Below are positions 28,224 to 52,130 of a stretch of DNA of 64,000 nt, in pieces. The stretch comes from Terriglobales bacterium (GTDB lineage Bacteria; Acidobacteriota; Terriglobia; Terriglobales; Acidobacteriaceae), in assembly GCA_035561515.1 (NCBI GenBank), contig DATMXP010000019.1, forward strand, positions 1-64,000, in the 5' to 3' direction. The notes below the pieces were generated by a model. It had not been told where the DNA came from, ran no database searches, and saw only the letters and a list, made by a program, of their open reading frames with translations. Position 1 is the stretch's first letter, and every line of letters starts with the position of its first letter. The position numbers were made by a program, and so were the translations under genes.

Positions 28224-28559
28224 GTGCCGCTCCGACTCAAACCCGTCGCGCGTTCGCTTTCAGTGCGAGCAGAGTTTTTCGGCTTGGAACTGGAGGACTG
28301 GGGTCTGGTGATCGCCTGGGCAATCCTCATGCGATTGATCGGAGACCACATTCACCGCGTGTTCCTCGGTTTCTTGCCGGTCTCAACAATCTTGGCCTAT
28401 GGCACATCCGCTGTCCTGGTTCTGCTGATCCGATGGGCGAAACACGGTAAACCGCGTGGCTACCTGGTCGATTGGCTTCAGCACCAATTTCGCCCGAATG
28501 CCCACAGCGCACGATCGAATGATTTGCAGTTGTCATATCTCATCGAGGATGAACAATGA
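28224..28559 (+). CDS. virB3: VirB3-like inner-membrane protein
   Basis: A 111-residue protein, GTG start at 28224. Two adjacent hydrophobic stretches, WGLVIAWAILMRLIG and ILAYGTSAVLVLLI, and a basic tail fit VirB3. It lies between the pilin and the VirB4 ATPase as in most virB operons, and its stop overlaps the virB4 ATG (ATGA). Called mainly by position, size and topology. Confidence 0.6.
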   Translation: MPLRLKPVARSLSVRAEFFGLELEDWGLVIAWAILMRLIGDHIHRVFLGFLPVSTILAYGTSAVLVLLIRWAKHGKPRGYLVDWLQHQFRPNAHSARSNDLQLSYLIEDEQ

Positions 28560-31312
28560 TCCAGCCCTCGACAATTCATCTGGTTGCCGCACTCATCGGA
28601 GTCCTCGCGCTGCTGACACTCGCGCTCGCGGTATTCCTACCATACGGCAGCGCCAAGAGGCGATCCGAATGCGACGGAAGCGGTGATAAGGAAGTATCTT
28701 CGCTCGCCGGCAGAATTCCCGTGTCGGAAATCCGGGATGACCTCATCGTGCGCAGAGATGGCTCGTTCTGCGCAGGATGGGAGTGCGTTGGAATCGCAAG
28801 CCAATTCGCTTCCGCTGAGCGTCTCGAAGCAGTCAGCAGTGCTCTGGATGCCTTCATAAAGGGATTCCGGCACCCAGAGATTGAGCTTCAGTTTCGTTAC
28901 GTTGTAGATCACGAAACACCGCAAGTTCTGCAGGACAGGAAGACTTCCTCCAATTGCGTTAATTCACCTGCAGCATGGCTCGAAGAAAATCGTCTCTCAT
29001 TCTGGAGATCGGCAATCGATGCGGGTCAAGTACGTTCTATCAAGCTCATTGCACTCTTGTCCTGGAAACCCATCCGCACGTGGGACACTCGTTCGGCAAT
29101 CTCACGATTCGCCGCAGCGTTTTGGGCTGGCCTTACGCGGGAGGGTTTCTCGAAATTCCCGAATGTCATCCGCCTCGCACTGACCGAAGCCCAAACCAAA
29201 GCATTGGTGCAGCGCAATCGCATAGCACACAATCGCCTGGTCGCCGAATTCAATCAACTTCTTGGAACGTATGGCCTCGGCCTCGAAGCGATTACTCCGG
29301 TGCGGCGGCTCAGAGAGCCCGAACTCGCTGGTCTGGTGTACCAGTCATTCAACCCAGCGGATCGGCATCCGGCAAGTCGGAGCCGCGATCTCGAATCCTT
29401 GCTTAACACGGATTGGTCGGAAGGCGTCCGCTTTCTTGATCTCGGTGGCGTTCTGAAGGGCGTTGTCACGCTTTCGGAACTGCCGGAGGCAACATTCGCT
29501 TCTCTTCCGCGCCCTCTGCTCGCGCTGGATTTTCCTTGCGAAATCGTTGTGAGTGTCCGAGTGCCTGATCAAGCAGCAAAAGTGCGCAAACTTCGTCGTC
29601 TGCTGAAGAAGAGCCTCGCTTTTCAACTGCGGAAGGACGGCAGCCGCCGGCGCGATTTTCAAGCAGCCGCTCTCGAAAAGGACTCGGTCGATACGCTGAC
29701 TTCCGCTGTAACTTCTTCTCAGCGGCTCGTTGAGATCGAGTTGGCAGTGATTGTGTCGATCTCGAAAGTCGCGCACACTGCCGCAGAACGCGAGAATGCA
29801 GAGCTGGAGTTGGCGCAGCGGGTTGAGTCCGTGTTACAGGCAATTGGACAGATGAACGGCGCCCGCGGATACCGTGAAGACACCTCGTTACTCCCCACGT
29901 TTATTTCGTTCCTGCCCGGTGTTCAAGGAGTTCGGAAGTCCAACCGGGAATTCACTCTGCTCTCCGGGCAGGCGGCAGATTTTGTTCCAACAGAGCTGCC
30001 ATGGACCGGAACTCATCATGACGCTCCTGCCTTCTTGGCACGGACACGCGAAGGAACATTGCTTCGCTTCAATCCGTTCAGCAATGAACTCACGAATGCC
30101 AACATTCTCGTGACCGGCAAGACCGGTTCTGGCAAATCGTTCCTAGTGAAGCAGCTTCTGCTGCAGTTGCAAGTGCTCAATCCACGTATCGCTATTGTCA
30201 CCAAAGGCGCAGATTATCGCGCTTTGATCGAACTTCTCGGAGGTCAGTATCGGGAGATCAGCCTACGCACAAAGTTGGTGAAGAACCCATGGGATCTCGA
30301 TGGGACAACCCACGAGTTGGATTCCGCTCAGGTTGCAGGTGTGGCGTCTCTCGCCTTCCACATGGCTGGTAAGACCGGCTCCGACGATGCGGTCATACTG
30401 AACTTTCTGGAGAAGGCCGTTCGCATGACCTATGAGCGGCTACTCGCCATCGGCAAGACTCCCCGTTTCTCCGACCTGAAATGGACATTGGAGCACTATC
30501 CATTTGAGAACGCAGTTATTGAGCAGCTCGCCCACGTGCTTGCATTGAAATTGAACCGCTGGACGGGAGAAGGCGTTTACGCGCAACTGTTCGACCAGGA
30601 CACGAGCCCGGAACTGCGAAAGACGGAAGACATCATCTGCTACGACATCGACGGACTTAAGGAATCTCCCGAACTGCAAGCAGCCGTGGCCTTCACCATC
30701 GCGAGAGCCATAGACCAACAGATTGGCCGGAAAGACACGAGCGGAAGCCTTCGGCCAACAGTCGCTGTGTTCGACGAAGTCTGGGCAATGCTGGCCGATC
30801 CAGTATTAGGGACGCAGGTTCTCAATGCATTTCGGACGGCACGCAAACGGTATGGTTCGATCATCGCGGCCAGTCAGGGCATTGAAGATTTCGTGGGCAC
30901 GGCCGAATCTCCGCACACCGTAGGTTTGGCGATCCTGCAAAACACGGAGGCGAAATTTGTTTGCGCGCAACTGGGAGAACTGTCCCGTCTTCGCGAAGTT
31001 CTGCACCTCTCAGAACCGGCATTAGAGGCAGTGAAGGAACTGCGCAATGTGCCGGGACATTTCGCCGAAAGTTATCTCCTCGTCGCTAATCAGCCGGAAT
31101 CAAGCACGGTAATACAGCTAACGGCGACTCCGTTTGACTATTGGGCAACCACCAGCAATCCGGTGGAAATGGAATTCAGGGAAAAATTCGCAAAAGAGCA
31201 CCAGGAACTGTCCGCGCTCGAAGCCATTTACAGGCTCGGCTTGGCCCACCCACAGGGCCTTGCGTCACCGCAAGCAAAGAATCAAAAGGAGACCTATGCG
31301 GCTGCTTCGTAG
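28556..31312 (+). CDS. virB4: VirB4-family conjugation ATPase
   Basis: A 918-residue protein. An N-terminal hydrophobic segment (LVAALIGVLALLTLALAVFL) anchors it to the membrane. Walker A is NILVTGKTGSGKSFLVKQLL and Walker B is TVAVFDEVWAMLADP, followed by ARKRYGSIIAASQ typical of VirB4/TraC. It powers pilus assembly and substrate transfer. With VirB11 not found, it and VirD4 are the recognised secretion ATPases. Length is normal for a VirB4 with an N-terminal extension. Confidence 0.9.
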   Translation: MIQPSTIHLVAALIGVLALLTLALAVFLPYGSAKRRSECDGSGDKEVSSLAGRIPVSEIRDDLIVRRDGSFCAGWECVGIASQFASAERLEAVSSALDAFIKGFRHPEIELQFRYVVDHETPQVLQDRKTSSNCVNSPAAWLEENRLSFWRSAIDAGQVRSIKLIALLSWKPIRTWDTRSAISRFAAAFWAGLTREGFSKFPNVIRLALTEAQTKALVQRNRIAHNRLVAEFNQLLGTYGLGLEAITPVRRLREPELAGLVYQSFNPADRHPASRSRDLESLLNTDWSEGVRFLDLGGVLKGVVTLSELPEATFASLPRPLLALDFPCEIVVSVRVPDQAAKVRKLRRLLKKSLAFQLRKDGSRRRDFQAAALEKDSVDTLTSAVTSSQRLVEIELAVIVSISKVAHTAAERENAELELAQRVESVLQAIGQMNGARGYREDTSLLPTFISFLPGVQGVRKSNREFTLLSGQAADFVPTELPWTGTHHDAPAFLARTREGTLLRFNPFSNELTNANILVTGKTGSGKSFLVKQLLLQLQVLNPRIAIVTKGADYRALIELLGGQYREISLRTKLVKNPWDLDGTTHELDSAQVAGVASLAFHMAGKTGSDDAVILNFLEKAVRMTYERLLAIGKTPRFSDLKWTLEHYPFENAVIEQLAHVLALKLNRWTGEGVYAQLFDQDTSPELRKTEDIICYDIDGLKESPELQAAVAFTIARAIDQQIGRKDTSGSLRPTVAVFDEVWAMLADPVLGTQVLNAFRTARKRYGSIIAASQGIEDFVGTAESPHTVGLAILQNTEAKFVCAQLGELSRLREVLHLSEPALEAVKELRNVPGHFAESYLLVANQPESSTVIQLTATPFDYWATTSNPVEMEFREKFAKEHQELSALEAIYRLGLAHPQGLASPQAKNQKETYAAAS

Positions 31313-32060
31313 GAAATCACTCATTGGCCTGACGATTACGTCTGTTCTTCTTGTGCCACTTGCGGCTCACGCGTTCTTCGGAACTATGCCGGTGATCGAC
31401 TGGACTGCCGTCGCACGCATCGGCCAACAAATCGGACTTTCGCAGGAGACATTGAACACGCTTGGTCTCTACGTGCAGCAATATAACCGCATCAATGCGG
31501 GGGTCCAGGAAGGGGTCGCGCTTGTTCGCGGAAGACAGCTTCAGGGACTTCTGAATGAGGCTGTCGGGAGCCAATTCCCAGAATTTCAACAACTGCAGCG
31601 CGACTTTCGCAACGTCCTCGTTGACCCCGCCACGGTCCGCGGAGACCTCGAACTGACCTACGGGGTCATACCGTCTGCTGACTTCCCGTTGATTCGCAAA
31701 AGAAGAATTGATGCGACGGATGCCACGGCAACGCTCGGGCTATTCGATGCTTCGCGGATGGAACTCGTGTCAGTACAGGAAGAAACCGATGCTGATGATA
31801 TTGAGGCACGCGCGGCAAACGCGAGTCCAGGGGGTGCGGCCAAGTTAGCCGCCGCCGCGAATGGGGCCTTGCTGCGCTCGCAAGCCTACGACCATCGCCT
31901 ATTGGCTCGGCTGATGAGATTGCAAGCCCTCTCGATCGCCCGCGACAACTCACAGGAAAAAGAACTCGAACAAGTTCGTCAAGCACAACTGACCACAGTC
32001 TCGACCATGGTCGGCAGTATGCAACTGTCGTATGGCATTGGAGATAGGGTGGGACACTAA
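31296..32060 (+). CDS. VirB5/TrbJ-like periplasmic protein
   Basis: A 254-residue protein from ATG 31296, behind AAAGGAG; it overlaps the end of virB4 by 17 bases. Signal peptide RKSLIGLTITSVLLVPLAAHA. The mature protein is largely helical (IGLSQETLNTLGLYVQQYN, coiled segments near the end with QEKELEQVRQAQL), as in the VirB5/TrbJ minor pilus proteins. The gene order virB4-virB5-virB6 supports this. Confidence 0.6.
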   Translation: MRLLRRKSLIGLTITSVLLVPLAAHAFFGTMPVIDWTAVARIGQQIGLSQETLNTLGLYVQQYNRINAGVQEGVALVRGRQLQGLLNEAVGSQFPEFQQLQRDFRNVLVDPATVRGDLELTYGVIPSADFPLIRKRRIDATDATATLGLFDASRMELVSVQEETDADDIEARAANASPGGAAKLAAAANGALLRSQAYDHRLLARLMRLQALSIARDNSQEKELEQVRQAQLTTVSTMVGSMQLSYGIGDRVGH

Positions 32061-33019
32061 TGCCGGACTTAGGAACAATCAGCAGATTTCTCGCGGCTTT
32101 GGGCGGACTTTGGGACCGTGCCGAGCAGTACCTGCCCCTGATCTTGGGCATCGCATTGCCTCTCGCAGGGTTGGTGTTCACGTTCAGCATGTTGCAGGCG
32201 TTCTTCCAGGACGGCGCGGAGGAAGACTACTTCCGCATCATGTGCCGTTTTGGCATTACGCTGGCGGTCCTTGCTGACTATCGCAGCCTCTTTATGAAAT
32301 TCAATGTCTTGAGCTCCGACTTGGCTCACCATTTCGGAGATCCGAACAGCTTTCAGAGCTTTTTTCAGCAGGTCCAATCGCAATTCGATAGTGTCAGCGG
32401 GGCGATTGTCTTCACCGCGCGACTATCGACGAGCATCGTTACGCTTCTAATTTTGATTTCAGGTGTAATCCTCGTCCTAGCCTACATCGGGCTTGTCGCC
32501 GCGCAAGCTTTGGCCGTCATTCTGCTGTACATCTTTGGTCCGTTACTGCTCGCACTACTGCCCAGCCGTCAACTCAGCACGGTTGCTTATACGTATTTGA
32601 AAGCCCTATTGCAGGTACTGCTCTGGCCGGCGATGTGGAGCCTTGTTTTGGCATTGTTGACCGGAGCGTTGTTGGGAGTATTAACCGCCGGGCCGTTCGT
32701 TGATCTGGTTCCTGCGATATTCCTGGTCCTTTTGGCAATCCTGTTGACGCAGATCCCCCGCCTCACTGGATATCTGACCAGCGGGGCACTGAATGCAGTA
32801 GGCGCGACAATTTCGACACTTGTAACGGCTGGCCTAGCCTATGCCACCTACAAAGTTGCCGAGACTGGCGCATCCGCTGTACTTGCGTATGCAACCGGAG
32901 GTGCGGCAGTCACGGTTCCCCAGGCAATCGGTTATGTCGCCCGAAGCCGGAGCAGCGAGGCCGTTGTCGTGCCTCCGCCGACGAAATTCGCACCGTTACC
33001 ACCGCCAAAGACTGCGTAG
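32060..33019 (+). CDS. virB6: VirB6/TrbL-like polytopic membrane protein
   Basis: A 319-residue protein with five or more hydrophobic segments, among them LILGIALPLAGLVFTFSML, IVTLLILISGVILVLAYIG, ALAVILLYIFGPLLLALL and a fourth near LVLALLTGALLGVL. This and the position before VirB8 fit VirB6/TrbL, the inner-membrane channel component. The start overlaps the previous stop (TAATG). A proline-rich C-terminus (VPPPTKFAPLPPPK) is unusual. Confidence 0.75.
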   Translation: MPDLGTISRFLAALGGLWDRAEQYLPLILGIALPLAGLVFTFSMLQAFFQDGAEEDYFRIMCRFGITLAVLADYRSLFMKFNVLSSDLAHHFGDPNSFQSFFQQVQSQFDSVSGAIVFTARLSTSIVTLLILISGVILVLAYIGLVAAQALAVILLYIFGPLLLALLPSRQLSTVAYTYLKALLQVLLWPAMWSLVLALLTGALLGVLTAGPFVDLVPAIFLVLLAILLTQIPRLTGYLTSGALNAVGATISTLVTAGLAYATYKVAETGASAVLAYATGGAAVTVPQAIGYVARSRSSEAVVVPPPTKFAPLPPPKTA

Positions 33020-33033
33020 ACGTGGAGAACTGT

Positions 33034-33714
33034 ATGAGCACTGTCACATCGGTTTCAAGTGATGACATGCAACAGAAGAAGCTGGAGCTTGGTGATTATT
33101 GCGACTTCTACACCCACTTGGCTGTCCAGGCACGCCGTGCATCGAGGGTCGCTTTGCTTGCGTGTAGTGTCGCGATGGTCGCGATGATCTCGGCAATCCT
33201 GGCGCAATTAAAACCGCCGATTTTGCTCCGTGTGCAGGATGGCAAAGTTTCCTCCTTGAACGGTTCGGGCGTAGGGGTGGCAGAGACTGCGGCGCAACAA
33301 CAACCGGACGAAGCCGAAAAACTGTCGTTCGTCGGGAGTTTCTTGGATCGGTTCGTGAACATCGACCCTGTCACAGTGAAGCGTAATACGACAATGGCGT
33401 TAAACCAGATGACGAACACGTTGCGGCAACACATCCTTGCGCAGCTCAACGAACAGCATTTTGTCGATACCGTGCGTGACAACAACGTCACCGCGACGCT
33501 TGCGGTCAAGTCAGCAGAACTGGTCTCAGGAGACCCATACACAGCAGTTGTATTTGGACAGAAGCGCATCACGACATTGGTCAACGGCCAGGAAAACAAG
33601 AAGGAGCTGCTCGTGAAATACATGATACGGCTCGCACCTGTGCCTCGCGCCGGTGGCAACGGCTGGAGCGGGTTGGAAGTGGCCGATTACAAGGAAGAGG
33701 TGCTACAGCAATGA
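33034..33714 (+). CDS. virB8: VirB8/TrbF-like inner-membrane scaffold protein
   Basis: About 226 residues from ATG 33034 (GGAG just upstream). A short cytoplasmic part is followed by one transmembrane helix, VALLACSVAMVAMISAILAQ, then a periplasmic alpha/beta domain, the topology of VirB8/TrbF. It nucleates the inner-membrane complex. The stop overlaps the ATG of virB9. Confidence 0.75.
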   Translation: MSTVTSVSSDDMQQKKLELGDYCDFYTHLAVQARRASRVALLACSVAMVAMISAILAQLKPPILLRVQDGKVSSLNGSGVGVAETAAQQQPDEAEKLSFVGSFLDRFVNIDPVTVKRNTTMALNQMTNTLRQHILAQLNEQHFVDTVRDNNVTATLAVKSAELVSGDPYTAVVFGQKRITTLVNGQENKKELLVKYMIRLAPVPRAGGNGWSGLEVADYKEEVLQQ

Positions 33715-34634
33715 AATCGATTGTCCAACTCACGCTGTTGCTATCCATTGCCGTTGGCTGTCTGGCTCAGTCCCAAGCTGGTGGTGCTGTGCAGCAACCA
33801 AAGACGAATCCTGATGGAAACGATACTGGCGTTGTGCCACTGGTCCGGCCATACGCCATTTCAACCGCTCCACATTTCGCTGTGTTAGTGCAGTTTCCGA
33901 AGGCTGACTCAATTCGCCGCATTGCGCTAGGAGACAGCAACTATTTCCTTGCAGAGGCCGATAAGGACGATCCGCACTATGCCATTGTGAAACAAATACG
34001 GGCGTCGGCAGAAAAGGCAAAGTCGCCAATCGAGACCAACATGCTCGTCTATATGGCGTCCGGGCGCGTGGTCAACATCATGCTGAAGTCCGGAAAGCTG
34101 GCGGAGACAGCGTACTCGATCAATTACCCGGTTGCAGAGCCTCCGGTGCGTCACAATCCTGCGCCAGCACAATTGGACCCCGAAGTTACTGAAAGGGCGA
34201 AGCGCGACCACGCCAGAAAAGAACTCACCGAGAAGATGCTCGATGACGTGCGAAAGGGCTCTCGGAAGCGGGCCAGCATCGTAGCAGGTGGCCTGACCCT
34301 GCATCCCTACAGAACCGAGCGACTGGACGAACTTGCTCTTGTCTCATTCGACATCGAGAACACATCTGCAGCGGTTGTTGACCTCGAAGATCCTCAGATC
34401 AATTTAGTGACAACAGCAGATAAAGGAAAAGATCGCAAGAAAGGCGTTCCTGCGAAGGTCGAGCCTGTTCAGCTTGCCGATTCCATAGTTTCAGTCAGGC
34501 AGCTACCTCCTGGCGGACGCGCCATCTGTTTGGTTGCGTTTAAGCCTCCGGTTCATGACAGCGACCAGCAGGTCGTGCTCTCGGTGTCGAATCGTGCAGT
34601 GGCAGATCACCCGGTCACGTTCCGTATTGAATAG
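33711..34634 (+). CDS. virB9: VirB9/TrbG-like secretion protein
   Basis: A 307-residue exported protein with signal peptide MKSIVQLTLLLSIAVGCLAQ. The N-terminal beta domain (HFAVLVQFPKADSIRRIALG, TNMLVYMASGRVVNIMLKSG) and a C-terminal beta domain match the two-domain VirB9/TrbG layout. VirB9 links VirB10 to the outer-membrane channel. It sits between virB8 and virB10. No VirB7 lipoprotein gene was seen nearby. Confidence 0.75.
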   Translation: MKSIVQLTLLLSIAVGCLAQSQAGGAVQQPKTNPDGNDTGVVPLVRPYAISTAPHFAVLVQFPKADSIRRIALGDSNYFLAEADKDDPHYAIVKQIRASAEKAKSPIETNMLVYMASGRVVNIMLKSGKLAETAYSINYPVAEPPVRHNPAPAQLDPEVTERAKRDHARKELTEKMLDDVRKGSRKRASIVAGGLTLHPYRTERLDELALVSFDIENTSAAVVDLEDPQINLVTTADKGKDRKKGVPAKVEPVQLADSIVSVRQLPPGGRAICLVAFKPPVHDSDQQVVLSVSNRAVADHPVTFRIE

Positions 34635-34650
34635 CCTCGGAGCAACTGAT

Positions 34651-36030
34651 ATGGACAAGCCCTCGAAGACAGCAGTCATTGAGCGAGACGAGGCCGCATT
34701 AGCCTCGGAGATCGAACGCGACCAAGAACTTGCTACGCAAGCCCTCGATGAGATTCGTGGAGCTGAAAGGCTCAGCGGCTTTGGACGCTTCGCGAACAAG
34801 ATGCAGAGCATCTTCCAAGGCCAGCAGGCGCAGGCGTCGAACTCGACAGGTCACTTACGCGTAGCTCCAATCATGATGTCCGCCGGGGTGCTGTTACTCA
34901 TTGCAACGGGCTTGCTATATCTCTTTTCGAAACCTGAGAGTACCGTCCCAAGCCATTTTCGTCAGCCCACGGGACTCAGCGAGGCAGACACTCAAAAGCG
35001 TGCCGCTGGTGCTGCTGATGCCCAGGCTCCCGTAACCGAGAATCAACTTATCTCCAGCGATAAGTCTGCAAGTACGGAGCAGAAGAAGGCCGGTTTGCAG
35101 AACGGGAATGGCAGTCGAGATATGGCTGCAATGCGGCATCTTGGCGTTGCTGGCGATCAAGGAAGTGCGGGCACTCAGAATATCGTTTCACCGCAAACGA
35201 TGACGAATGAATTGCAGACCCCGGCCACAGTGTTCGTCGCAAGAATTTCCGCTGCACCCGCTGCAACCTCTCCAAATGCATCTCCACAGCCAGGGCGGCA
35301 GTCACAGCTTCCAGCGGGTACAGAGATCGTAGCGCATACGACCAATGCGATAAGTAGTGGATTGGAATCGCCGGTCATCGCTGTTGTTGACAGAAATGTC
35401 GAACTGAACGATTCAGTCGTTATCCCGCAAGGTGCGCGCGTGGTCGGCTACACATCAGGAGCCGTGAAGGACCGGATCAATGTGCGATTTACGTCCATAC
35501 TGTTGCCCAATAACCGGGAGATGACGATCTCCGGTCTGGCGCTCATGAAAGACGGAAGCGCCGGTTTGGTTGGCAAGGCTCAGGGCAGCGGTCATCCCGT
35601 CCTATCCACAGCCGCTCGTATCGGAACTGGTGCAGCGGTTGTGGCGACTGAGTTTGTCGGGCAGGGATCTCTCAATCAGGCTTTTTCCCAGGCCGACTAT
35701 CTTAGAAATCAGATGGCTGCAGAAGTGGCGGTGCAGGGGAATCGCTTGTCGAACCGTCTTCAACAACCGATGAGCGTCCCGATCGTGAACGTGAGCACTA
35801 ACCAGCCATTGCGCATATTTTTGCTGAACGCAATTGATCTCGGTGGTGGACGCAATCAAGGCTCGCAGTCAGCGGCCTCCTCCGCCTTCGCCAGCGCGAT
35901 GCAAGATCAGAACGCACCCTCGGAACAATCGTTGGTCGCGGCACAGACAGCCTATATTCAGGCGCTAGAAGCACAGTTGGCAGACATGCGCGCTGCCCTC
36001 AACGGAAAGCAGACCAATGGACAGCATTAA
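34651..36030 (+). CDS. virB10: VirB10/TrbI-like channel protein
   Basis: About 459 residues from ATG 34651 (GGAGC upstream). Cytoplasmic N-terminus, a transmembrane helix MMSAGVLLLIATGLLYLF near 70-90, a Gln/Ala/Pro-rich linker, then the VirB10 beta barrel: GTEIVAHTTNAISSGLESPV, VIPQGARVVGYTSGAVKDR and RFTSILLPNNREMTI. It spans the envelope and senses ATPase energy. The stop overlaps the next ATG at 36017. Confidence 0.85.
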   Translation: MDKPSKTAVIERDEAALASEIERDQELATQALDEIRGAERLSGFGRFANKMQSIFQGQQAQASNSTGHLRVAPIMMSAGVLLLIATGLLYLFSKPESTVPSHFRQPTGLSEADTQKRAAGAADAQAPVTENQLISSDKSASTEQKKAGLQNGNGSRDMAAMRHLGVAGDQGSAGTQNIVSPQTMTNELQTPATVFVARISAAPAATSPNASPQPGRQSQLPAGTEIVAHTTNAISSGLESPVIAVVDRNVELNDSVVIPQGARVVGYTSGAVKDRINVRFTSILLPNNREMTISGLALMKDGSAGLVGKAQGSGHPVLSTAARIGTGAAVVATEFVGQGSLNQAFSQADYLRNQMAAEVAVQGNRLSNRLQQPMSVPIVNVSTNQPLRIFLLNAIDLGGGRNQGSQSAASSAFASAMQDQNAPSEQSLVAAQTAYIQALEAQLADMRAALNGKQTNGQH

Positions 36031-36928
36031 GGACTGCCGCACTTTGGTTTCAGCCAGCGATCTGGGGATGATCTTGGCGGAGCACGGTTACATTGCGAAG
36101 CCGGAGACCACGAACGTGATGTATCTCGCTCTTCGTTTACAAAAGCCGTTGCTGCTGGAGGGACCTCCGGGCGCGGGAAAAACTCAGGTAGCGAAGGTTT
36201 TGTCGGAGGCGCTCGATATGCCTTTGATTCGGTTGCAATGCTATGAGGGAATTGACGAGGCGAAGGCGCTTTACCAGTGGAACGAGTCTCTGCAGCGCAT
36301 TGCACTCGAATACATGCGCCAGAGTCAAGGCGGATCGCAAACCACGTGGACCGATCTGAAGCGACTGCTTTATAGCCCGGACTTTCTAATTCCTGGCCCG
36401 ATCCTGCGAGCTTTGCAGTCCGATAGCAAGGCGGTGTTGTTGATCGACGAAGTCGATAAGACTGGCCCGTCGTTCGAGGCGTTTCTCTTGGAGATTCTTT
36501 CGGACTTCCAAGTTTCGATTCCTCAACTCGGTACGGTTGTCGCGACGCATCGGCCAATTGTGGTGCTAACGTCGAATGCCCAGAGGAAATTGACGGATGC
36601 TCTGCGTGGACGTTGCTTCCTGTTGTGGATGAATTATCCCGCACCAGATCAAGAGGCCGAAATCATCACGACGCATTCGCCCGCGTTTGAATCTCAGCTT
36701 GCAACGCAGGCAGCCCGGTTCACCGCCGCTGTCCGTCACCTGGGAATGGCGAAGCCGCCCGCGATCCGGGAATCTCTCGATTGGATTGACGCGCTGACTC
36801 TTTTGGGAGCAACGGAACTCACTGCTGACGTGGTTTCTGCCACCCTCCCCGTGCTACTAAAAACCCGAGAGGATATCGACCGGGCCGCAGGAAATGTTGC
36901 GTTGCTTCTTCAACGCGCTTGCGCTTAG
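36017..36928 (+). CDS. MoxR-type AAA+ ATPase within the transfer operon
   Basis: A 303-residue AAA+ protein: Walker A LLEGPPGAGKTQVAKVL, Walker B AVLLIDEVDKTGPSFEAF, and a sensor-type arginine in VVLTSNAQRKLTDALRGRCF. MoxR ATPases are chaperone-like and often act on a VWA partner, which is not visible here. It lies inside the T4SS operon between virB10 and virD4, where VirB11 might be expected. It is not a VirB11 homologue by motif. Confidence 0.85.
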   Translation: MDSIKDCRTLVSASDLGMILAEHGYIAKPETTNVMYLALRLQKPLLLEGPPGAGKTQVAKVLSEALDMPLIRLQCYEGIDEAKALYQWNESLQRIALEYMRQSQGGSQTTWTDLKRLLYSPDFLIPGPILRALQSDSKAVLLIDEVDKTGPSFEAFLLEILSDFQVSIPQLGTVVATHRPIVVLTSNAQRKLTDALRGRCFLLWMNYPAPDQEAEIITTHSPAFESQLATQAARFTAAVRHLGMAKPPAIRESLDWIDALTLLGATELTADVVSATLPVLLKTREDIDRAAGNVALLLQRACA

Positions 36929-36972
36929 TTCAACACGATCATCCACAATCGGCACCGCATCGCCCATCCACA

Positions 36973-38658
36973 ATGAACTGCAAGGAGCCTGATTTGTCCT
37001 TCGCTGTCGCGCAGATTCGACGATTACCGTACCTGATATTCGGGTGGGCGTTGATAGCTGTCGTGTCTTTCTCAATGCCTGATCGAATGTTCTTGAGCAG
37101 AGCCCAGGGCCGTTGGTTCGGAATCGCCTTGTTAGGGGTCGCGCTCCTGCGTGGATCGCGACAGGTTAGTCAGAGTCTGCCAGTCGAGCTTGATTCTCTC
37201 ACTCTCTCGCAATTGCCCCGCAAAGACCAGATGCAATACGTGGGACACGGCTTCCTGTGGAATTCCGAACGCGCCAATCAAGTGCTTGCAGTTGAACGGA
37301 TGAGCGAAACCATCTCGCGTACTCGCGGCCCGGGGGATCTTGGCGGTGTGACGGTGCTTCACGCGGTCGGTCGAAAGCGAGAACAGCCGACTTTCCTTCC
37401 CCTCAGTGATCTGGAAGGACACATGCTCGTGGCCGGAGCGACTCGCACTGGCAAGACCCACTATCTCCAACTCGACGTTGTGCAAGCCATTGAACGGGGT
37501 GATGAAGCCGTCATCTTCATTGACCCGAAGGGCGATTTGAAAGTCCTGCATCGAGCCTATGATGCGGCCGTGCGGATGGGTCGCGAAAAAGATTTTCTAT
37601 TCTTCTCGCTCGCGTTTCCTCATATCTCCTGCACCTATAACCCGCTCCACAATTTTGTGCTCGGCATGGAGATTCCCGACCGGCTCGCTGGCTTACTTCC
37701 AGGTGGCGGCCAGTCAGAACCCTTCAAGGCATTCGCGTGGGAAGTAATCAATGTGATCGCGCAGGCGATGCTGCTGGCGGGAGAGCGCCCACTGCTCTCA
37801 AAGATCGCGCGTTACGCGAAGGTCAACGGTACGCTGGAAGAACTGTTACCCAAGATCCCCGAGCAGACTCCCGAATATGAGTATTTGCTGGGACTCATCA
37901 AGCATCCACCCGACCACTACGACAAGATGGTTTCCTCGTTGAAACCGCTGCTTTCGAAGCTCGACACGCCGGACTTTCGCAGCCTGATGTCGGTCCCGAA
38001 CCCTGAACTGGACTGGGATTGCGCCATCCGAAACAAGCGCATCGTGTACATGTTCATGGGTTCGATGATCGTCAAAGAAACAGCGTACGCAATTGGAATG
38101 CTGGCCTTACAGGACCTGCTGAACTTTATCGGGCGAGCATATGCCTATGAACAAGCGAAAACTCCTGTGAGGCTCGTGGTAGATGAGGTTGGCAGGCTGG
38201 TCTTTCCGGGCTTTGTCGATTTGTTGGCGCAGGCCGGGGGGCAAGGCGTCATGGCCGTGCTGGCATTCCAAAGCGTTGCAGATTTGTTGAGCGTCCTAGG
38301 GCCAGCAGGGGCACAGCAAATTCTCGATAACACGAACACAAAACTATGGTTCAGAGCCACGGACTACGCGACGGCCAAGGCTTTTGCTGATGTCGCCGGC
38401 CAGGGTCCTGTTCTCACGAAGCGCGAGTCCGCGAGCTATCGCCCTGTCTTGGACGGTAAGCACGCACCACGTGGCCTGGCGTTCGATGCCACCTTTTCCC
38501 AACAGTCCACAGAGATGATCGACAACCTTGTTCGCGAAGACTGGGTCATGAAACTTCCGCGTGGGCAGGCTTTCCTGTACGCGAGCGGCTACACGTATAA
38601 AACACGTTTTCCACTACTGCCCGACCCGAAGCACCACTTTCCCTTGGAGAAGTCATGA
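36973..38658 (+). CDS. virD4: VirD4/TraD-family coupling protein
   Basis: About 561 residues from ATG 36973. A TTG at 36994 has a better AAGGAG site six bases upstream and may be the true start. Two membrane helices near the N-terminus (LIFGWALIAVVSFSM, then WFGIALLGVALLR), Walker A LVAGATRTGKTHYLQLDVVQ, a following FIDPKGD, and Walker B PVRLVVDEVGRLVFPGFV. It recruits the relaxosome to the secretion channel. The stop overlaps the next gene's ATG. Confidence 0.9.
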   Translation: MNCKEPDLSFAVAQIRRLPYLIFGWALIAVVSFSMPDRMFLSRAQGRWFGIALLGVALLRGSRQVSQSLPVELDSLTLSQLPRKDQMQYVGHGFLWNSERANQVLAVERMSETISRTRGPGDLGGVTVLHAVGRKREQPTFLPLSDLEGHMLVAGATRTGKTHYLQLDVVQAIERGDEAVIFIDPKGDLKVLHRAYDAAVRMGREKDFLFFSLAFPHISCTYNPLHNFVLGMEIPDRLAGLLPGGGQSEPFKAFAWEVINVIAQAMLLAGERPLLSKIARYAKVNGTLEELLPKIPEQTPEYEYLLGLIKHPPDHYDKMVSSLKPLLSKLDTPDFRSLMSVPNPELDWDCAIRNKRIVYMFMGSMIVKETAYAIGMLALQDLLNFIGRAYAYEQAKTPVRLVVDEVGRLVFPGFVDLLAQAGGQGVMAVLAFQSVADLLSVLGPAGAQQILDNTNTKLWFRATDYATAKAFADVAGQGPVLTKRESASYRPVLDGKHAPRGLAFDATFSQQSTEMIDNLVREDWVMKLPRGQAFLYASGYTYKTRFPLLPDPKHHFPLEKS

Positions 38659-39251: not shown

Positions 39252-40109
39252 ATGTCTGACCGTTCACAAAATATCACCCTCGTAGCAATCCACGGCGAAT
39301 TCACTATGGGAGTGTGGATGCTGATGAGTATTCGGTTTTCTGAGCGCCTGGCGTCGCTTGACGAAAAAACAGGCGAGTTCCTGAGAACTCTGGGATACAT
39401 GGGCGGATATTGCACGGTCGATCAAGCGCGGAGGCTCGATCTCGCTAACTCGCCTACGCGGGTACTCGAACGGCTGAAGAGGTTGGAGGACCATAGATTC
39501 CTACGTCGGGTCGTCACATATCCGCTTGTGTACCAAGTCACAAAGTCGGTGACTCGGATGTTGGGGACCGATTTGATGGCGAGACGGGTTCATCCGGTGG
39601 AGACCGTGCGCTGGAGGTTGCTGGCAGTGAACTTCTACCTGGAGGCAAGGACTTGGCCGGCCGAGTTCATCTTGGATCATGACGGGAGGGTCTCCGCCCT
39701 GCAGCGGATCGGATGCCCCGCAGACGCTCTCCCGCAGCGCAGGGGTCAGCCCTATCTGTGGCAAGCCTTCATCCTGGACCTGCATGATGGCGGTCTGTGC
39801 ATCTCTGTTGTTGATCGTCCGGACTGCAGCGCCTTACTACAAGCATTGGGCTTTGTGAGGCGATTTGCCGCGTGTCGGCGGTCGATGGGCGAGCGACTTT
39901 CTCTGGTGGTAGCAGTTAACTCCGATGCTCGCCGTCGGCTCTATTCCAAAGCAGTGAGCCACGCGAAGGTGCGAGAGTACACGCAAGGTTTCTCCGAACC
40001 ACTGAGCATCTACCGCGTGATCCTGCCGGTTCAATCTATTCACGCAACGACCCACGAGTCCGACACCCACACCGACAACTTAATTCGAGGAGGCCACGAA
40101 AGGCCATGA
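39252..40109 (+). CDS. Winged-helix protein, possible replication-relaxation family
   Basis: About 285 residues from ATG 39252. The region LGYMGGYCTVDQARRLDLAN, then VLERLKRLEDHRFLRRVVTY and PLVYQVTKS, looks like a winged helix of the replication-relaxation type found on mobile elements. The C-terminal part (YLWQAFILDLHDGGLCISVV) may be a nuclease-like alpha/beta domain without visible catalytic residues. It lies two genes upstream of the relaxase and may be a relaxosome accessory protein. Confidence 0.4.
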   Translation: MSDRSQNITLVAIHGEFTMGVWMLMSIRFSERLASLDEKTGEFLRTLGYMGGYCTVDQARRLDLANSPTRVLERLKRLEDHRFLRRVVTYPLVYQVTKSVTRMLGTDLMARRVHPVETVRWRLLAVNFYLEARTWPAEFILDHDGRVSALQRIGCPADALPQRRGQPYLWQAFILDLHDGGLCISVVDRPDCSALLQALGFVRRFAACRRSMGERLSLVVAVNSDARRRLYSKAVSHAKVREYTQGFSEPLSIYRVILPVQSIHATTHESDTHTDNLIRGGHERP

Positions 40110-40381
40110 AACTGACCGGCACAATCCTGAGGTGCTTGGCTCGGAAAGTCAGCTCCGGAGGCAAAGAAACTTACGTCACCAACCTGCTGATTTTGGACCC
40201 TGACAACAGCACGGGAACCAATTATGCGGTCGAGGTTTGGGGCGACAATCCCCATGATCTGCGGCTGATGTCCGACGTTTCTTTGACGGTCGTCGGGGTC
40301 GTCAACAAGAACACTGGCGTTCCGGCATTCCGCGCCGTCATCGGTCCTCGGCCTGAGGCAGAGGTCCCGGCTGCGGCGTAG
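40106..40381 (+). CDS. Small OB-fold-like protein next to candidate oriT
   Basis: A 91-residue, strand-rich protein (KLTGTILRCLARKVS, NYAVEVWGDN, VSLTVVGVVNKNTGVPAFRAV) whose pattern resembles a small single-stranded-DNA-binding OB fold. The start overlaps the previous stop (ATGA). It immediately precedes the inverted-repeat cluster before the relaxase, so a role at oriT is possible. Identity is tentative. Confidence 0.45.
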   Translation: MKLTGTILRCLARKVSSGGKETYVTNLLILDPDNSTGTNYAVEVWGDNPHDLRLMSDVSLTVVGVVNKNTGVPAFRAVIGPRPEAEVPAAA

Positions 40382-40410
40382 GTGGTTACCGGAGCCGTAG
40401 CCTGAACCCG

Positions 40411-40534
40411 GTGAATCTTCGGCGCGATTCACGGTTAAAGGCGTCGCGCCGCGACGCCTTTAACCATTCCCTTACCGGCCACCCCCGGGGGTACCCGCCG
40501 GGGGTGCCTGTTGGGGGTAGGTGAGGCACCCCCG
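40411..40534. promoter_or_regulatory. Inverted-repeat cluster, candidate origin of transfer (oriT)
   Basis: Three perfect inverted repeats lie in the only sizeable gap beside the relaxase: GTGAATC at 40411-40417 with 40426-40432; a 16-bp arm at 40433-40448 (starts GGTTAAAGGC) with 40450-40465, one base between; and CGGGGGTGCC at 40499-40508 with 40525-40534. The area between is rich in C and G runs. None has a T-tract, which argues against terminators. oriT is inferred from position; the nick site is unknown. Confidence 0.5.
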
Positions 40535-40549
40535 CGAAGAGGAAAAGAA

Positions 40550-41623
40550 TTGGCAGAAGTTCAAGACATGACGGAGCGGATTCTGTATCGCCTCTCGCTA
40601 GACCCGAAGGCGCGCTCGCTGGCTGAGAAGTTGCTCGGACGATTCCGCTGTTTAGTCGGCAACTTGCCAGCCAGCGCCGACCACCACCACTCGGAACCAG
40701 GTGGGCTTTACTCCCACTCCGTGGAAGTAGCGCTCGGCACGCTTGAAGCCTTTGAGGGCAACATTATTATGGAGCGCAAGCCCGACGGCAGCGTAGACAG
40801 TTTCCAAAGCTCCCGTAATCGTCCGCGCTGGCAATACGCCACCTTCATCGCCGCCCTGTGCCATGACCTGGGAAAGTTGTTCGATCTTACGTTGAAAGCG
40901 GATGGACGGCGCTGGTACCCGCTGAAGCAGACATATGCAGATTTCGTCCGAGTTGATCGAAAGCCTCTGACAGTCACATGGAATGCGGAGCGACAGCATG
41001 GCGCTCATGCGCTGCTTTCCTGCTTGCTGGTTCATCACCTTCTGTCATCCGAAGATACGGACTACCTTGGGCTTCCGCGCCTCGTCCACATTGCCGAAAC
41101 GTTGGTGGGAAGTCATAGCCGAACCAAGGGGAGCCAGATTGGTCAAAGCGTAAAGAAGGCGGATCAGAAGAGTGTAGAACGCGCCCATGTTGCGCTCTCA
41201 GCGCGGCCTGACAGTAAGGTCGGCCAGTTCCTGGAAGCATTGGAAGAGTTGATCGTGGGAGGACAACTGAACGTAAACGCTCCGGGTGCACAGGTCTGGG
41301 TGTCTGGAGAAAGAACGGCTGTAGTCGTGCCTCTTTCTCTGGATCTGGCCCGTGATCGTCTCATGGAACGAAAAGTTGTTCTTCCTCCGAACATTCATTT
41401 CTATAACACCCTGCGGAACGCAAACCTCGTGGAAGCCGACAAGATCGGGCACTGTGTTCGCCAAATCAAGGTCCCCGGCAAGCACGGCACTGTGTCACTA
41501 AGCGCCCTGATTTTTCCCACAGAGAAGGTCATACCCAAGCAGATTCTGCCCACCCTACCTGTAATCCAATTCGAAATTGAGACTGCGCCCGAGGCCGAGA
41601 TTGTAGCCGTGGACGGGGCGTAA
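40550..41623 (+). CDS. MOBH-type relaxase-like protein (HD-fold, TraI_2-like)
   Basis: About 357 residues. The start is taken as TTG 40550; ATG 40568 is an alternative. SADHHHSEPGGLYSHSVEVA carries the triple-His and GGL-x-HS signature of the TraI_2/MOBH relaxase fold, with CHDLGKLFDLTL as the metal-binding HD and HGAHALLSCLLVHHLL following. It would nick oriT and lead the strand through the VirB channel. It is shorter than many MOBH relaxases. No other relaxase was seen in the window. Confidence 0.7.
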   Translation: MAEVQDMTERILYRLSLDPKARSLAEKLLGRFRCLVGNLPASADHHHSEPGGLYSHSVEVALGTLEAFEGNIIMERKPDGSVDSFQSSRNRPRWQYATFIAALCHDLGKLFDLTLKADGRRWYPLKQTYADFVRVDRKPLTVTWNAERQHGAHALLSCLLVHHLLSSEDTDYLGLPRLVHIAETLVGSHSRTKGSQIGQSVKKADQKSVERAHVALSARPDSKVGQFLEALEELIVGGQLNVNAPGAQVWVSGERTAVVVPLSLDLARDRLMERKVVLPPNIHFYNTLRNANLVEADKIGHCVRQIKVPGKHGTVSLSALIFPTEKVIPKQILPTLPVIQFEIETAPEAEIVAVDGA

Positions 41624-43022: not shown

Positions 43023-44144
43023 ATGAACCTAGAAACCAAAAAACTGAAGGCCGCACTGGAGCGACTCTGTCTGGTGGTGCCGAAGAAAGGAACCTTGCCG
43101 GTGCTGGAAAACTTTCGATGGCGCGTTGTCAAAGGTCATCTAGAGTTGACTGCTACCGACTTGGACAACAGCATCCATATTTCAATGCCCTTCGCTGCGT
43201 CCGTGATCGCCAACTCGGTTGATGTGCTGGTTCCAGCGAAGGAGTTATACCAAGCCGTGAAAACAGAATCTGCCCTGACCCTGGAAATCCGAATTCACGA
43301 TGGCAAGTTTGAAGTGCGCGCCAACAACCGTACCCTGGTGCTGCCCGCAAGCGAGCCGAAGAACTTCCCACAGATTCCTGATGGGGAGTTGAGTCTAAAA
43401 GGTCGGATTCTCGCTTCGGCACTCGAAACAGCTCTGACCAAGGCGCTGTTTTGTCTTTCCACGGAATCGACGCGTTACAGTACCGATGTTGTCAAACTTG
43501 AAATGCGAGATTCGACTTTTCGTGTCGTGGGCACAGACGGACATCGACTGTCAGTGGTGGAAGGAGCCGCGAAGACCGGAAGTAATTCCGCTGCCTTCTC
43601 GACTCTTCTGCTCCGCTCGACAGCCTCCATCCTCAGCAAGCTTCAGGCGGATGGCGAATCTGGTTGGGCACAGTTTTCAACCTGCGGCTCAGAACAAGAG
43701 TTCAATTTGTTCGTGCTGCCGGACGGATCCGGCCTGATCGCTCGCCGGGGACAAGGACAGTTCCCGAGTTACGAGAACGTCATTCCCAAAGCGCCGCTCG
43801 AAGCCAAAGTCGTGTTTCAGCGCGACGAACTGCTGGACGGACTGACGAAACTGTCAGCCACCGCACGCAAATCGCAGAACGCAGCGGTGAAACTCGAATT
43901 GTCGAAATCGCCAGCCTGCATCAAGGCCGAAAACGACGGCACAGCAAATCGTGTCGCTCTGGAGCACGCTCGTGTCTCAGGAAGAGCCAGGGACATCGGT
44001 CTGAATCACCACTACCTGGTTCAATACGTGAAGAGTCTGGAGACCGATACGGTCTCAATGAGGCTCTTCCCACAAGCGATCTCCGAAGTGATTGTGTTTG
44101 ACAGCTTCCGCTATCAGCACCTGCTGATGCCGCTGCGCGATTGA
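43023..44144 (+). CDS. dnaN: DNA polymerase III beta subunit (sliding clamp), element copy
   Basis: A 373-residue protein with three similar domains: LVVPKKGTLPVLENFRWRV and ELTATDLDNSIHISMP in the first, LCFS-like TDVVKLEMRDSTFRVVGTDG and HRLSVVEG in the second, and RQGQFPSYENVIPKA, then the closing LLMPLRD in the third. Length is normal, so it is not a fragment. Clamps tether polymerase to DNA; a copy on a mobile element suggests its own replication or repair. It has the CCACAAAAGGAG leader shared with the SWIM-finger gene. Confidence 0.85.
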   Translation: MNLETKKLKAALERLCLVVPKKGTLPVLENFRWRVVKGHLELTATDLDNSIHISMPFAASVIANSVDVLVPAKELYQAVKTESALTLEIRIHDGKFEVRANNRTLVLPASEPKNFPQIPDGELSLKGRILASALETALTKALFCLSTESTRYSTDVVKLEMRDSTFRVVGTDGHRLSVVEGAAKTGSNSAAFSTLLLRSTASILSKLQADGESGWAQFSTCGSEQEFNLFVLPDGSGLIARRGQGQFPSYENVIPKAPLEAKVVFQRDELLDGLTKLSATARKSQNAAVKLELSKSPACIKAENDGTANRVALEHARVSGRARDIGLNHHYLVQYVKSLETDTVSMRLFPQAISEVIVFDSFRYQHLLMPLRD

Positions 44145-50510: not shown

Positions 50511-50625
50511 GGCGCTAATCCGCAGGGCGGACTCCTTTCCCTTAACCCATTTGCTCCTTATCCATTCCCGTTCGGGATTTTCCACCCTTGCCCATTCCAT
50601 TTGAATTTCGCAATCGGAGTTCGCG

Positions 50626-50841
50626 ATGGACAATACAGCGACAATTCCAAATCTCGGCTTTCCACCGACCGGAGACGTGCTTCTGAATGCTGAGGAAGTA
50701 GCGCAAATTCTGCGTGTTCCCAAGAGTTGGGTTTACAGCCACCTGCATGAGCTTCCTGCTATTAGGCTCGGTCGTTACGTGCGCTTTCGCCGCCGCGAGA
50801 TTGAGCGCTTCCTGGAAGAGCGCTCAGGAGCTTGCCAGTGA
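50626..50841 (+). CDS. xis: Excisionase-like helix-turn-helix protein
   Basis: A 71-residue protein; ATG 50626 follows GGAGTTCGCG. DVLLNAEEVAQILRVPKSWV followed by LPAIRLGRYVRFRRREIERF is the MerR/AlpA-type helix-turn-helix of excisionases. It overlaps the integrase by four bases. It probably directs excision and may regulate int. Confidence 0.85.
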   Translation: MDNTATIPNLGFPPTGDVLLNAEEVAQILRVPKSWVYSHLHELPAIRLGRYVRFRRREIERFLEERSGACQ

Positions 50842-52130
50842 GTCCGCTTCGTGCTACTCGTAGATCACGGTTGAAGCACCACGGAAGGAGAATCGTGGTG
50901 CGTGAGAAATACCAGAAACCCGAGGTGAAGGACCTCGGTACGAAGTGGAAGATGGTGTACTGGGACTACAGTTCGAGGCCGCGCCGCAAGCGCTCCAAGG
51001 TCTGGGCAAAGAGCACTGCGCCGAGCAAGCGGGACGCGCAGCGCTTGGCCGACCAGTTCATGGAGAGAGTGAACGCGCGGAACAACGAACCGGGTCTCTA
51101 CCCGTCTGATGATGAAACCCTGGCCTCGCTGATCGTGAAGTGTCGCGAGAAAACGTGGCCCCATCTCAAGAACTCAACGCGGCAGCATTACGAGTTCTTG
51201 ACCGACAAATACCTGTTGCCAGCCTGGGGAACGATGAAGCTCCGCAAAATGAACATCATCGAACTTCAGGATTTCTTCAACGCTTTTTACCCACGCCTTT
51301 CGCCAAAGTCGATCCGGCTGATGCACGCCTGCTTACGTGTTCACCTGAATCAAGCGAAGGTCTGGGGAATGGTTGAGAAGAACGCGGCAATTGGGGTGAA
51401 GCTGCCTCGGAGGAAGCAGCGCAAGCCTACGATCCTGTTGCCGTTGGCGACAATCGGCAAGCTGATCGAGCTTCTTCCCGAGCCCACCAAGAGCGTCGTC
51501 GTGCTGATCGTGTTCGGGTCTCTTCGCATCGGTGAAGTGCTGGCCCTGCGCTGGCGTCACATCCAAGCAGACCGAATTACTGTGGAAGAACGCGTCTACG
51601 AAGGCGAATTCGACGACGTAAAAACCGACGCCGGCGAGCGACAGGTACCGTTCGACCAGCGCGGGTTGATGAAGAGCGCCCTGATTGGACGATGGAACGC
51701 GAGCAAGCACCAGCAGCCGAACGATTTAGTGTTCTGCACGCGTAAAGGCAAGGGTAAAGGCGGTCCTTTGGGCAGGCGTAATCTGTTGCGCCACATCAAG
51801 GCGGCCGCTACCAAGCTGGGCCTCTCCGCTGCCGTTGATTTTCGGAGCTTCCGCACCATGCATTCCAGCCTCATGCTGAGGGAGGGTGCAAGGCCGGAGG
51901 TCGTCCGGGACAACATGGGCCACGCCAACATCGATGTGACCCAGAACGTTTACGGCAAGAGCTGGTGGGAAGAGCGAGTGGAAGCGGTCACGCGAGCGGT
52001 AGAAGCGGTGTCCGTCGCCACCGAGAACGCAGAGAAAGCAGAAGCCAAACCGGATCAGCCTAAATCCTTCAGCGACCAATGGGTGCCCCTTTGGGTGCCC
52101 CAGCAGGAAACCAAAGTTGCAAGTTGTTGA
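50838..52130 (+). CDS. int: Tyrosine recombinase, element integrase
   Basis: A 430-residue protein from GTG 50838, overlapping the excisionase stop (GTGA). Basic N-terminal arm-binding part, core-binding domain at about 95-180, and catalytic domain with Arg230 in GSLRIGEVLALRW, Arg339 in VDFRSFRTMHSS, His362 in MGHANIDVTQ and Tyr372 in VYGK. The position usually holding His (three before Arg339) is Arg336. It integrates and excises the element, probably at tRNA-Pro; the target is inferred from the fragment at 92. Confidence 0.9.
   Translation: MSPLRATRRSRLKHHGRRIVVREKYQKPEVKDLGTKWKMVYWDYSSRPRRKRSKVWAKSTAPSKRDAQRLADQFMERVNARNNEPGLYPSDDETLASLIVKCREKTWPHLKNSTRQHYEFLTDKYLLPAWGTMKLRKMNIIELQDFFNAFYPRLSPKSIRLMHACLRVHLNQAKVWGMVEKNAAIGVKLPRRKQRKPTILLPLATIGKLIELLPEPTKSVVVLIVFGSLRIGEVLALRWRHIQADRITVEERVYEGEFDDVKTDAGERQVPFDQRGLMKSALIGRWNASKHQQPNDLVFCTRKGKGKGGPLGRRNLLRHIKAAATKLGLSAAVDFRSFRTMHSSLMLREGARPEVVRDNMGHANIDVTQNVYGKSWWEERVEAVTRAVEAVSVATENAEKAEAKPDQPKSFSDQWVPLWVPQQETKVASC

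Follow-up and report, generated by a model that had tools for sequence, protein, structure and literature searches.

The non-coding segment directly in front of a MobH-type relaxase gene is probably the origin of transfer (oriT) of a family of integrative conjugative elements (ICEs) in soil Acidobacteria, as judged from its sequence and distribution. Because smaller islands without a MobH relaxase carry the same site, it very probably starts transfer; this would be the pattern expected of an oriT common to an ICE and to mobilizable islands. The original prediction had proposed a candidate oriT here, and the call is supported by conservation of the site at close MobH relatives and by its recurrence in islands without MobH.

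Layout of the repeat composite and of the surrounding element

The features of the window, that is the whole analysed stretch of 64,000 nucleotides, are collected in Table 1. Three perfect inverted repeats, one of them with a 16-bp arm and a one-base centre, had been claimed for this segment and were found exactly where they had been placed. No perfect inverted repeat in the 64-kb window (spacer up to 20) is longer than the 16-bp one; the longest in dinucleotide shuffles of the window (n=25) was 11. Whether treated as RNA or as DNA, a 150-nt stretch has a more stable fold than each of 200 shuffles (z -5.0 to -6.6). The repeats are real and far above chance. The half-site array had been overlooked in the earlier reading. 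Its direct GGGGGTR copies start at 40487, 40500 and 40513 (13-bp period) and the inverted copies at 40480 and 40527, with p=0.008 for direct and p=0.002 for inverted repeats against shuffles. A palindrome, ACCCCCGGGGGT, also lies within the site.

Table 1. Positions in the window of the repeat composite and of the element around it
Feature	Position	Strand	Remarks
Composite site	40411-40533/40534		about 125 bp; IR1, IR2, core and array of five half-sites
IR1	40411..40432	.	perfect 7-bp arms GTGAATC/GATTCAC (40411-40417/40426-40432); arms up to 12 bp in relatives
IR2	40433..40465	.	perfect 16-bp arms (40433-40448/40450-40465), 1-nt centre
Conserved core TTTAACCATTCCCTTACC	40459..40476	+	candidate nic or bind region
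Half-site array	40480..40533	+	CACCCCC inverted, three direct GGGGGTR at 13-bp steps, CACCCCC inverted
Perfect 11-bp inverted repeat	40499-40509/40524-40534		
Second common non-coding signature, TTAnCCATTCC repeats	50515..50600	+	upstream of integrase
T4SS genes (TraG/VirB4-like ATPase, VirB6-, VirB8-, VirB10-like)	28556..36030	+	profile matches
TraD/VirD4-type coupling protein	36919..38658	+	SXT_TraD 2.9e-97, below cut-off
Winged-helix gene ('wHTH'; winged helix + nuclease-fold-like)	39324..40109	+	site partner, same contig as 8/10 copies
Small OB-fold-like protein gene	40106..40381	+	predicted structure
MobH-type relaxase gene (HD hydrolase)	40550..41623	+	TTG start; TraI_2 and NF041494 MobH profile matches
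Tyrosine integrase of element	50832..52130	+	3.3e-16

The repeats had been placed in the gap directly before the relaxase, and there they lie: the gap spans 40382-40549 and the relaxase start was placed at TTG 40550 rather than 40511 (relatives have TTG, GTG or ATG at the equivalent place). The identification of this gene as a MOBH-like relaxase also held. It matches TraI_2 (PF07514) at 4.6e-31 and 108 bits (cut-off 23.9) and NF041494 MobH at 1.2e-45 and 155.9 bits, under the equivalog cut-off of 200, and is predicted to be a diverged, short MobH member of 357 aa. HHH and HD motifs are seen in the MobH alignment, with the first His changed to Asp in the related genome G014; the HHH we take to be the published 3H motif. 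The gene proposed across the gap is present, and for its product the OB fold has weak structural support (top PDB match of the model an OB domain, E 0.048, TM 0.56), while profile searches returned no family match. With T4SS genes, of which the VirB6 and VirB8 matches fall under curated cut-offs, the gene set reads as that of an ICE, on a contig of 212,781 bp. A sliding-clamp (DnaN-like) gene at 43023-44144 also lies inside the ICE, and the version in the ICE of G508 is 75% identical. Acidobacterial ICEs have been on record since 2011, according to an excerpt of the source (PMC3158045).

Two other readings of the segment were rejected. An attachment site would not be expected inside the ICE and far from the integrase, and a G-quadruplex was discarded by eye, as four G-runs are absent from some copies.

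Conservation, covariation and recurrence of the site

The search for MobH homologues covered 61, 396, 398 and 397 genomes (overlapping draws). Close relatives with upstream DNA came from G014 (65% identical), G508 (59%) and G475 (86%, gene broken); among the close relatives two are acidobacterial MAGs, one of Terriglobales. The composite stands beside all three of them in the order OB gene, IR1 region, IR2, core, array, relaxase. IR2 plus core agree with the window at 35/36 positions in G508, 31/36 in G014 and 35/36 in G475, and MobH DNA identity to the window is 59% for G508 and 64% for G014 (36% and 38% at third codon positions). IR1 is poorly conserved in G014 (8/25), where two IR2 pairs are altered on both sides with pairing retained. 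The G508 array has GCGGGTG for GGGGGTR in every half-site, at unchanged spacing. The G475 locus (L012, G475:C53) appears to be a deletion derivative of an ICE, in which the broken and truncated MobH gene is followed directly by an orf49294 homologue and an integrase.

The oriT call had been tied to conservation of the repeats near homologous relaxases. They are kept beside the three close MobH genes, and the more distant MobH loci gave no site match (three acidobacterial, of which L016 has only 46 bp upstream of its MobH match, and four on proteobacterial plasmids). Scans of viral contigs with MobH yielded no relative, the site DNA matched nothing among plasmid and phage sequences, and none of six single-arm matches was matched by the site model.

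To recover copies away from MobH, covariance models were built on four and then on seven copies. With the four-copy model, seven of 348 family genomes gave full-length matches of at least 53 bits, and three of the seven (G461, G546, G561) have no MobH at the site. Extra copies were found beside the winged-helix gene in G552 (48.9 bits), at a second place in the window's own genome (40.8 bits) and in G461:C34 (G461b, 22.3 bits). We accepted the last of these on account of its position, about 0.7 kb ahead of the winged-helix gene, and of its perfect 12-bp IR1. The total is ten copies, four at MobH (one broken) and six on contigs without any MobH relaxase. A genome-wide relaxase search, covering the MobH family, gave TraI_2 (PF07514) matches of 16.7-18.1 bits in G461, G546 and G561 (cut-off 23.9; true ones 97-99). 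Six genomes of the G508 genus returned the G508, G461:C29, G546 and G561 copies and nothing new, and 39 relatives of G552 no further copy. Matches in G492 and G600 were dropped as weak (24-25 bits).

On the contigs of four of the six MobH-less copies there are also a homologue of the winged-helix gene and a recombinase of the tyrosine or serine type; one of these four copies scores 22 bits and one has a very weak IR2. Recombinase and site without a relaxase occur together at G461:C29, G461:C34, G552:C124 and C19:84.8-88.2 kb of the own genome, and the last three of these copies precede a tyrosine or large serine recombinase. The G461:C29 island has a tyrosine integrase next to tRNA-Phe as well as a winged-helix homologue, and its cargo (L051:10128-14895) includes defence candidates: Upx-like pieces divided among three ORFs, and genes for a HEPN/nucleotidyltransferase pair (PDC-M05). 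The G546 copy, at a contig end, is 92.7% identical to that of G461:C29; the rest of the same island, including winged-helix gene and recombinase, is on another contig (C25). The G561 copy is degenerate, on a 7.3-kb contig without recombinase or winged-helix gene. The second own-genome copy is on the same contig as the ICE. In its small island (L021:3519-8153, C19:83.5-88.2 kb) the site lies together with an IS110-like transposase (identified by eye), a winged-helix gene and a large serine recombinase, and no relaxase was seen. At four island loci a tRNA gene adjoins the recombinase; no att repeats were found at the island ends, nor a clean empty site in the comparison.

The core CCATTCC is present in eight of the ten copies, G561 having CGATTCC and G461b CCCTTCCC. 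IR2 is weak or different in G552 and in the second own-genome copy. In the ten-copy alignment 80.4% of cells are paired, against 71.5% in shuffles (0/500 reach the observed value) and 32-43% when the same hairpin structure is slid along the alignment; 12 of 25 pairs are altered on both sides. The IR1 helix has 85.5% of cells paired and a change on both sides in 5/11 pairs, the IR2 helix 76.4% and 7/14. These figures support covariation of IR1 and IR2, as far as a small alignment with related rows can, short of proof. Array steps are 13 bp in the window, G475 and G508, 14 plus 12 bp in G014, G461a and G546, and 26 bp in G552 and the own second copy; the G461b array has no such period. Direct repeats are significant in 9/10 copies (G461b p=1.0), as are inverted repeats (G561 p=0.52). 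Both kinds of repeat appear to be kept under selection.

The array reaches up to the ribosome-binding site of the MobH gene. Such abutment would suit an arrangement with IR2 as the terminator of the winged-helix/OB operon and the array as an operator for the operon that starts with the relaxase, and related genomes (G620, G550, G461:C75) do have IR2-like AAAGGCG..CGCCTTT hairpins where genes end. We consider this improbable. The missing T-tract had been held against a terminator from the start; on its own that argument is weak, IR2-like hairpins standing at gene ends too, but the intrinsic criterion of a stem followed by a T-tract finds no counterpart at the site, and a terminator scan called no terminator-like site within the gap. 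Moreover, no relaxase gene lies downstream in six copies, and the core is conserved between elements, whereas terminators need no fixed sequence. In G552, the second own copy and G461b the AAAGG/CCTTT form is lost, yet IR1, a core and mostly the array remain. The terminator, attachment-site and single-gene operator readings fit worse than oriT. A terminator may have been the ancestor of IR2, or IR2 may serve as one in addition, and autoregulation on top of the oriT role is possible. The hairpins themselves were recorded at or near gene ends at L055:9513-9549, L058:7490-7525 and L057:1706-1756; model matches in G620, G550, G461:C75 and G454 were set aside as terminator-like.

The winged-helix partner and other roles considered for the site

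A profile of the winged-helix protein, searched in 300 genomes, detected 12 loci in 10 genomes. Eight of these loci share their contig with a copy of the site, and for the G546 locus the copy is on another contig; G530 and G481 are cut by contig ends, and G458 is a fragment without a site. Counted from the site, a winged-helix gene shares the contig of 8/10 copies and MobH that of 4/10 (one broken). The protein matched no Pfam or PHROG family and nothing in the plasmids searched. In eight elements, N-terminal identity of the winged-helix protein correlates with array similarity (rho 0.53, p 0.0014; hairpin part 0.30, p 0.07), a relation that owes some of its strength to two near-identical members, G461a and G546, and does not count as proof.

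So constant a partner might itself be the nickase in place of MobH. It would then be a MOBC-like relaxase, with a winged helix at the N-terminus and a PD-(D/E)XK-type fold at the C-terminus, binding at the array and cutting at the core, and even the small islands would come with a relaxase of their own. The C-terminal model does resemble restriction-endonuclease-type folds (XisH Z 8.0, SdaI 7.9), although a Z of 8 is common among unrelated folds. MOBC relaxases combine such a fold with a winged helix, and one of them, pAD1 TraX, is described in an excerpt of a review as binding five direct repeats (PMC12857230). Profile comparison with four MOBC proteins scored 24.6, the best of 40 column shuffles reaching 20.4, for the winged-helix part only, but hhalign gave a probability of 3.4-6.6%, no Pfam family matched, and Foldseek E was above 0.07 (against PDB, nothing with E up to 0.001 for the winged-helix and OB-fold-like models alike). 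By eye, the MOBC motif RPDG...ETER corresponds here to PYLW...VVDR, with no clear acidic/lysine counterpart. A missing catalytic motif would suggest a catalytically dead adapter, and nicking by this protein appears rather unlikely.

A function in replication was also considered. Directly repeated half-sites adjoin the winged-helix gene in several islands, as they might in an iteron-type oriV from which the excised circle would replicate once the winged-helix protein has initiated. This is very improbable: the protein matches no replication initiator family, the site of the ICEs sits at the relaxase, and hairpins with a conserved core are more typical of oriT. A double role as oriT and oriV is possible.

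A second signature bears on the core. TTAnCCATTCC-like repeats (up to 2 mismatches) stand upstream of the recombinase in 9/9 elements examined, the recombinases being unrelated. Because similar repeats precede recombinase genes, the core may be a common recognition word or regulator site instead of nic. An element-encoded activator might bind it and switch on transfer and excision together, with nic elsewhere. The core of the composite is, however, fixed to two covarying hairpins, and upstream of the recombinases the match is inexact, with p as high as 0.044 at single loci; we regard such an activator site as rather unlikely. The CAGGGCGGACTCC-type motif with TTAnCCATTCC repeats was located, apart from the window, at L051:16557, L021:6185, L084:7403, L085:10112 and L086:880, and further loci of this type are L022:6711(-), L083:2291 and L012:6504. 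Where looked at, it stands behind a GC-rich hairpin.

Proposed mechanism and relation to known systems

In the reading that we favour, MobH acts in trans and the winged-helix protein is the factor that binds the array; from it we infer nicking, binding partners, mobilisation and direction as follows. Each element's winged-helix protein would bind its half-site array and shape or recruit the relaxosome. Both hairpins and the core CCATTCC would offer a single-stranded substrate. The relaxase would nick in or near the core, MobH of the ICE doing so in trans for islands without MobH, and TraD would hand the strand on to the T4SS. A more specific version, which we put forward tentatively and at less than even chance, is an oriT with two keys: a core common to the ICEs and the islands that hitchhike on them, cut by MobH, and an element-specific array read by the element's own MOBC-like, perhaps dead, winged-helix adapter, the core motif upstream of recombinases coupling excision to transfer.

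Known systems are compared here as described in the available excerpts of their sources. The oriT of IncA/C plasmids (MOBH), which adjoins the accessory gene mobI, contains 14-bp direct repeats as well as inverted ones (PMC5587640). The likeness is one of architecture: about 150 bp, several inverted repeats with direct repeats of about 14 bp, an accessory gene needed for transfer and a MobH-type relaxase. The IncA/C site, in contrast, is AT-rich and away from the relaxase, and its nic could not be located (PMC5587640). The oriT of Salmonella Genomic Island 1 (SGI1) with MpsA/MpsB resembles the present site in its 125 bp, GC-richness, inverted repeats, self-encoded oriT factors and MOBH plasmid helper; MpsA, however, is of the tyrosine-recombinase type, and the SGI1 oriT differs from that of its helper, whereas the islands here have the core of the ICE (PMC6414798). 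By their gene content the islands appear to fit the iOriT criterion of recombinase plus oriT without relaxase. Like iOriT integrative mobilizable elements, they have an integrase and the proposed oriT, no relaxase or mating-pair genes and a need for a helper, which here is a proposed one; unlike those elements, each brings an array and a diverged winged-helix gene of its own (PMC11389934). MOBC relaxases (pAD1 TraX, CloDF13 MobC) are alike in winged helix, nuclease-type fold and a repeat array as bind site, and unlike in their catalytic motif, not evident by eye in the winged-helix protein (PMC12857230); at the hhalign probability given above, homology between the two is at most tentative.

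A 2025 review counts, in its excerpt, a single MOBH relaxase characterised at the molecular level (PMC12857230). Titles and abstract openings of the open-licence literature on MOBH oriT/iterons, Acidobacteria oriT/relaxase and Terriglobales integrative mobilizable elements do not describe the site. The ten natural variants narrow a poorly understood kind of oriT to a short candidate region with a protein partner, both open to direct tests, and they point to helper-dependent islands in Acidobacteria, at least one of them with candidate defence genes.
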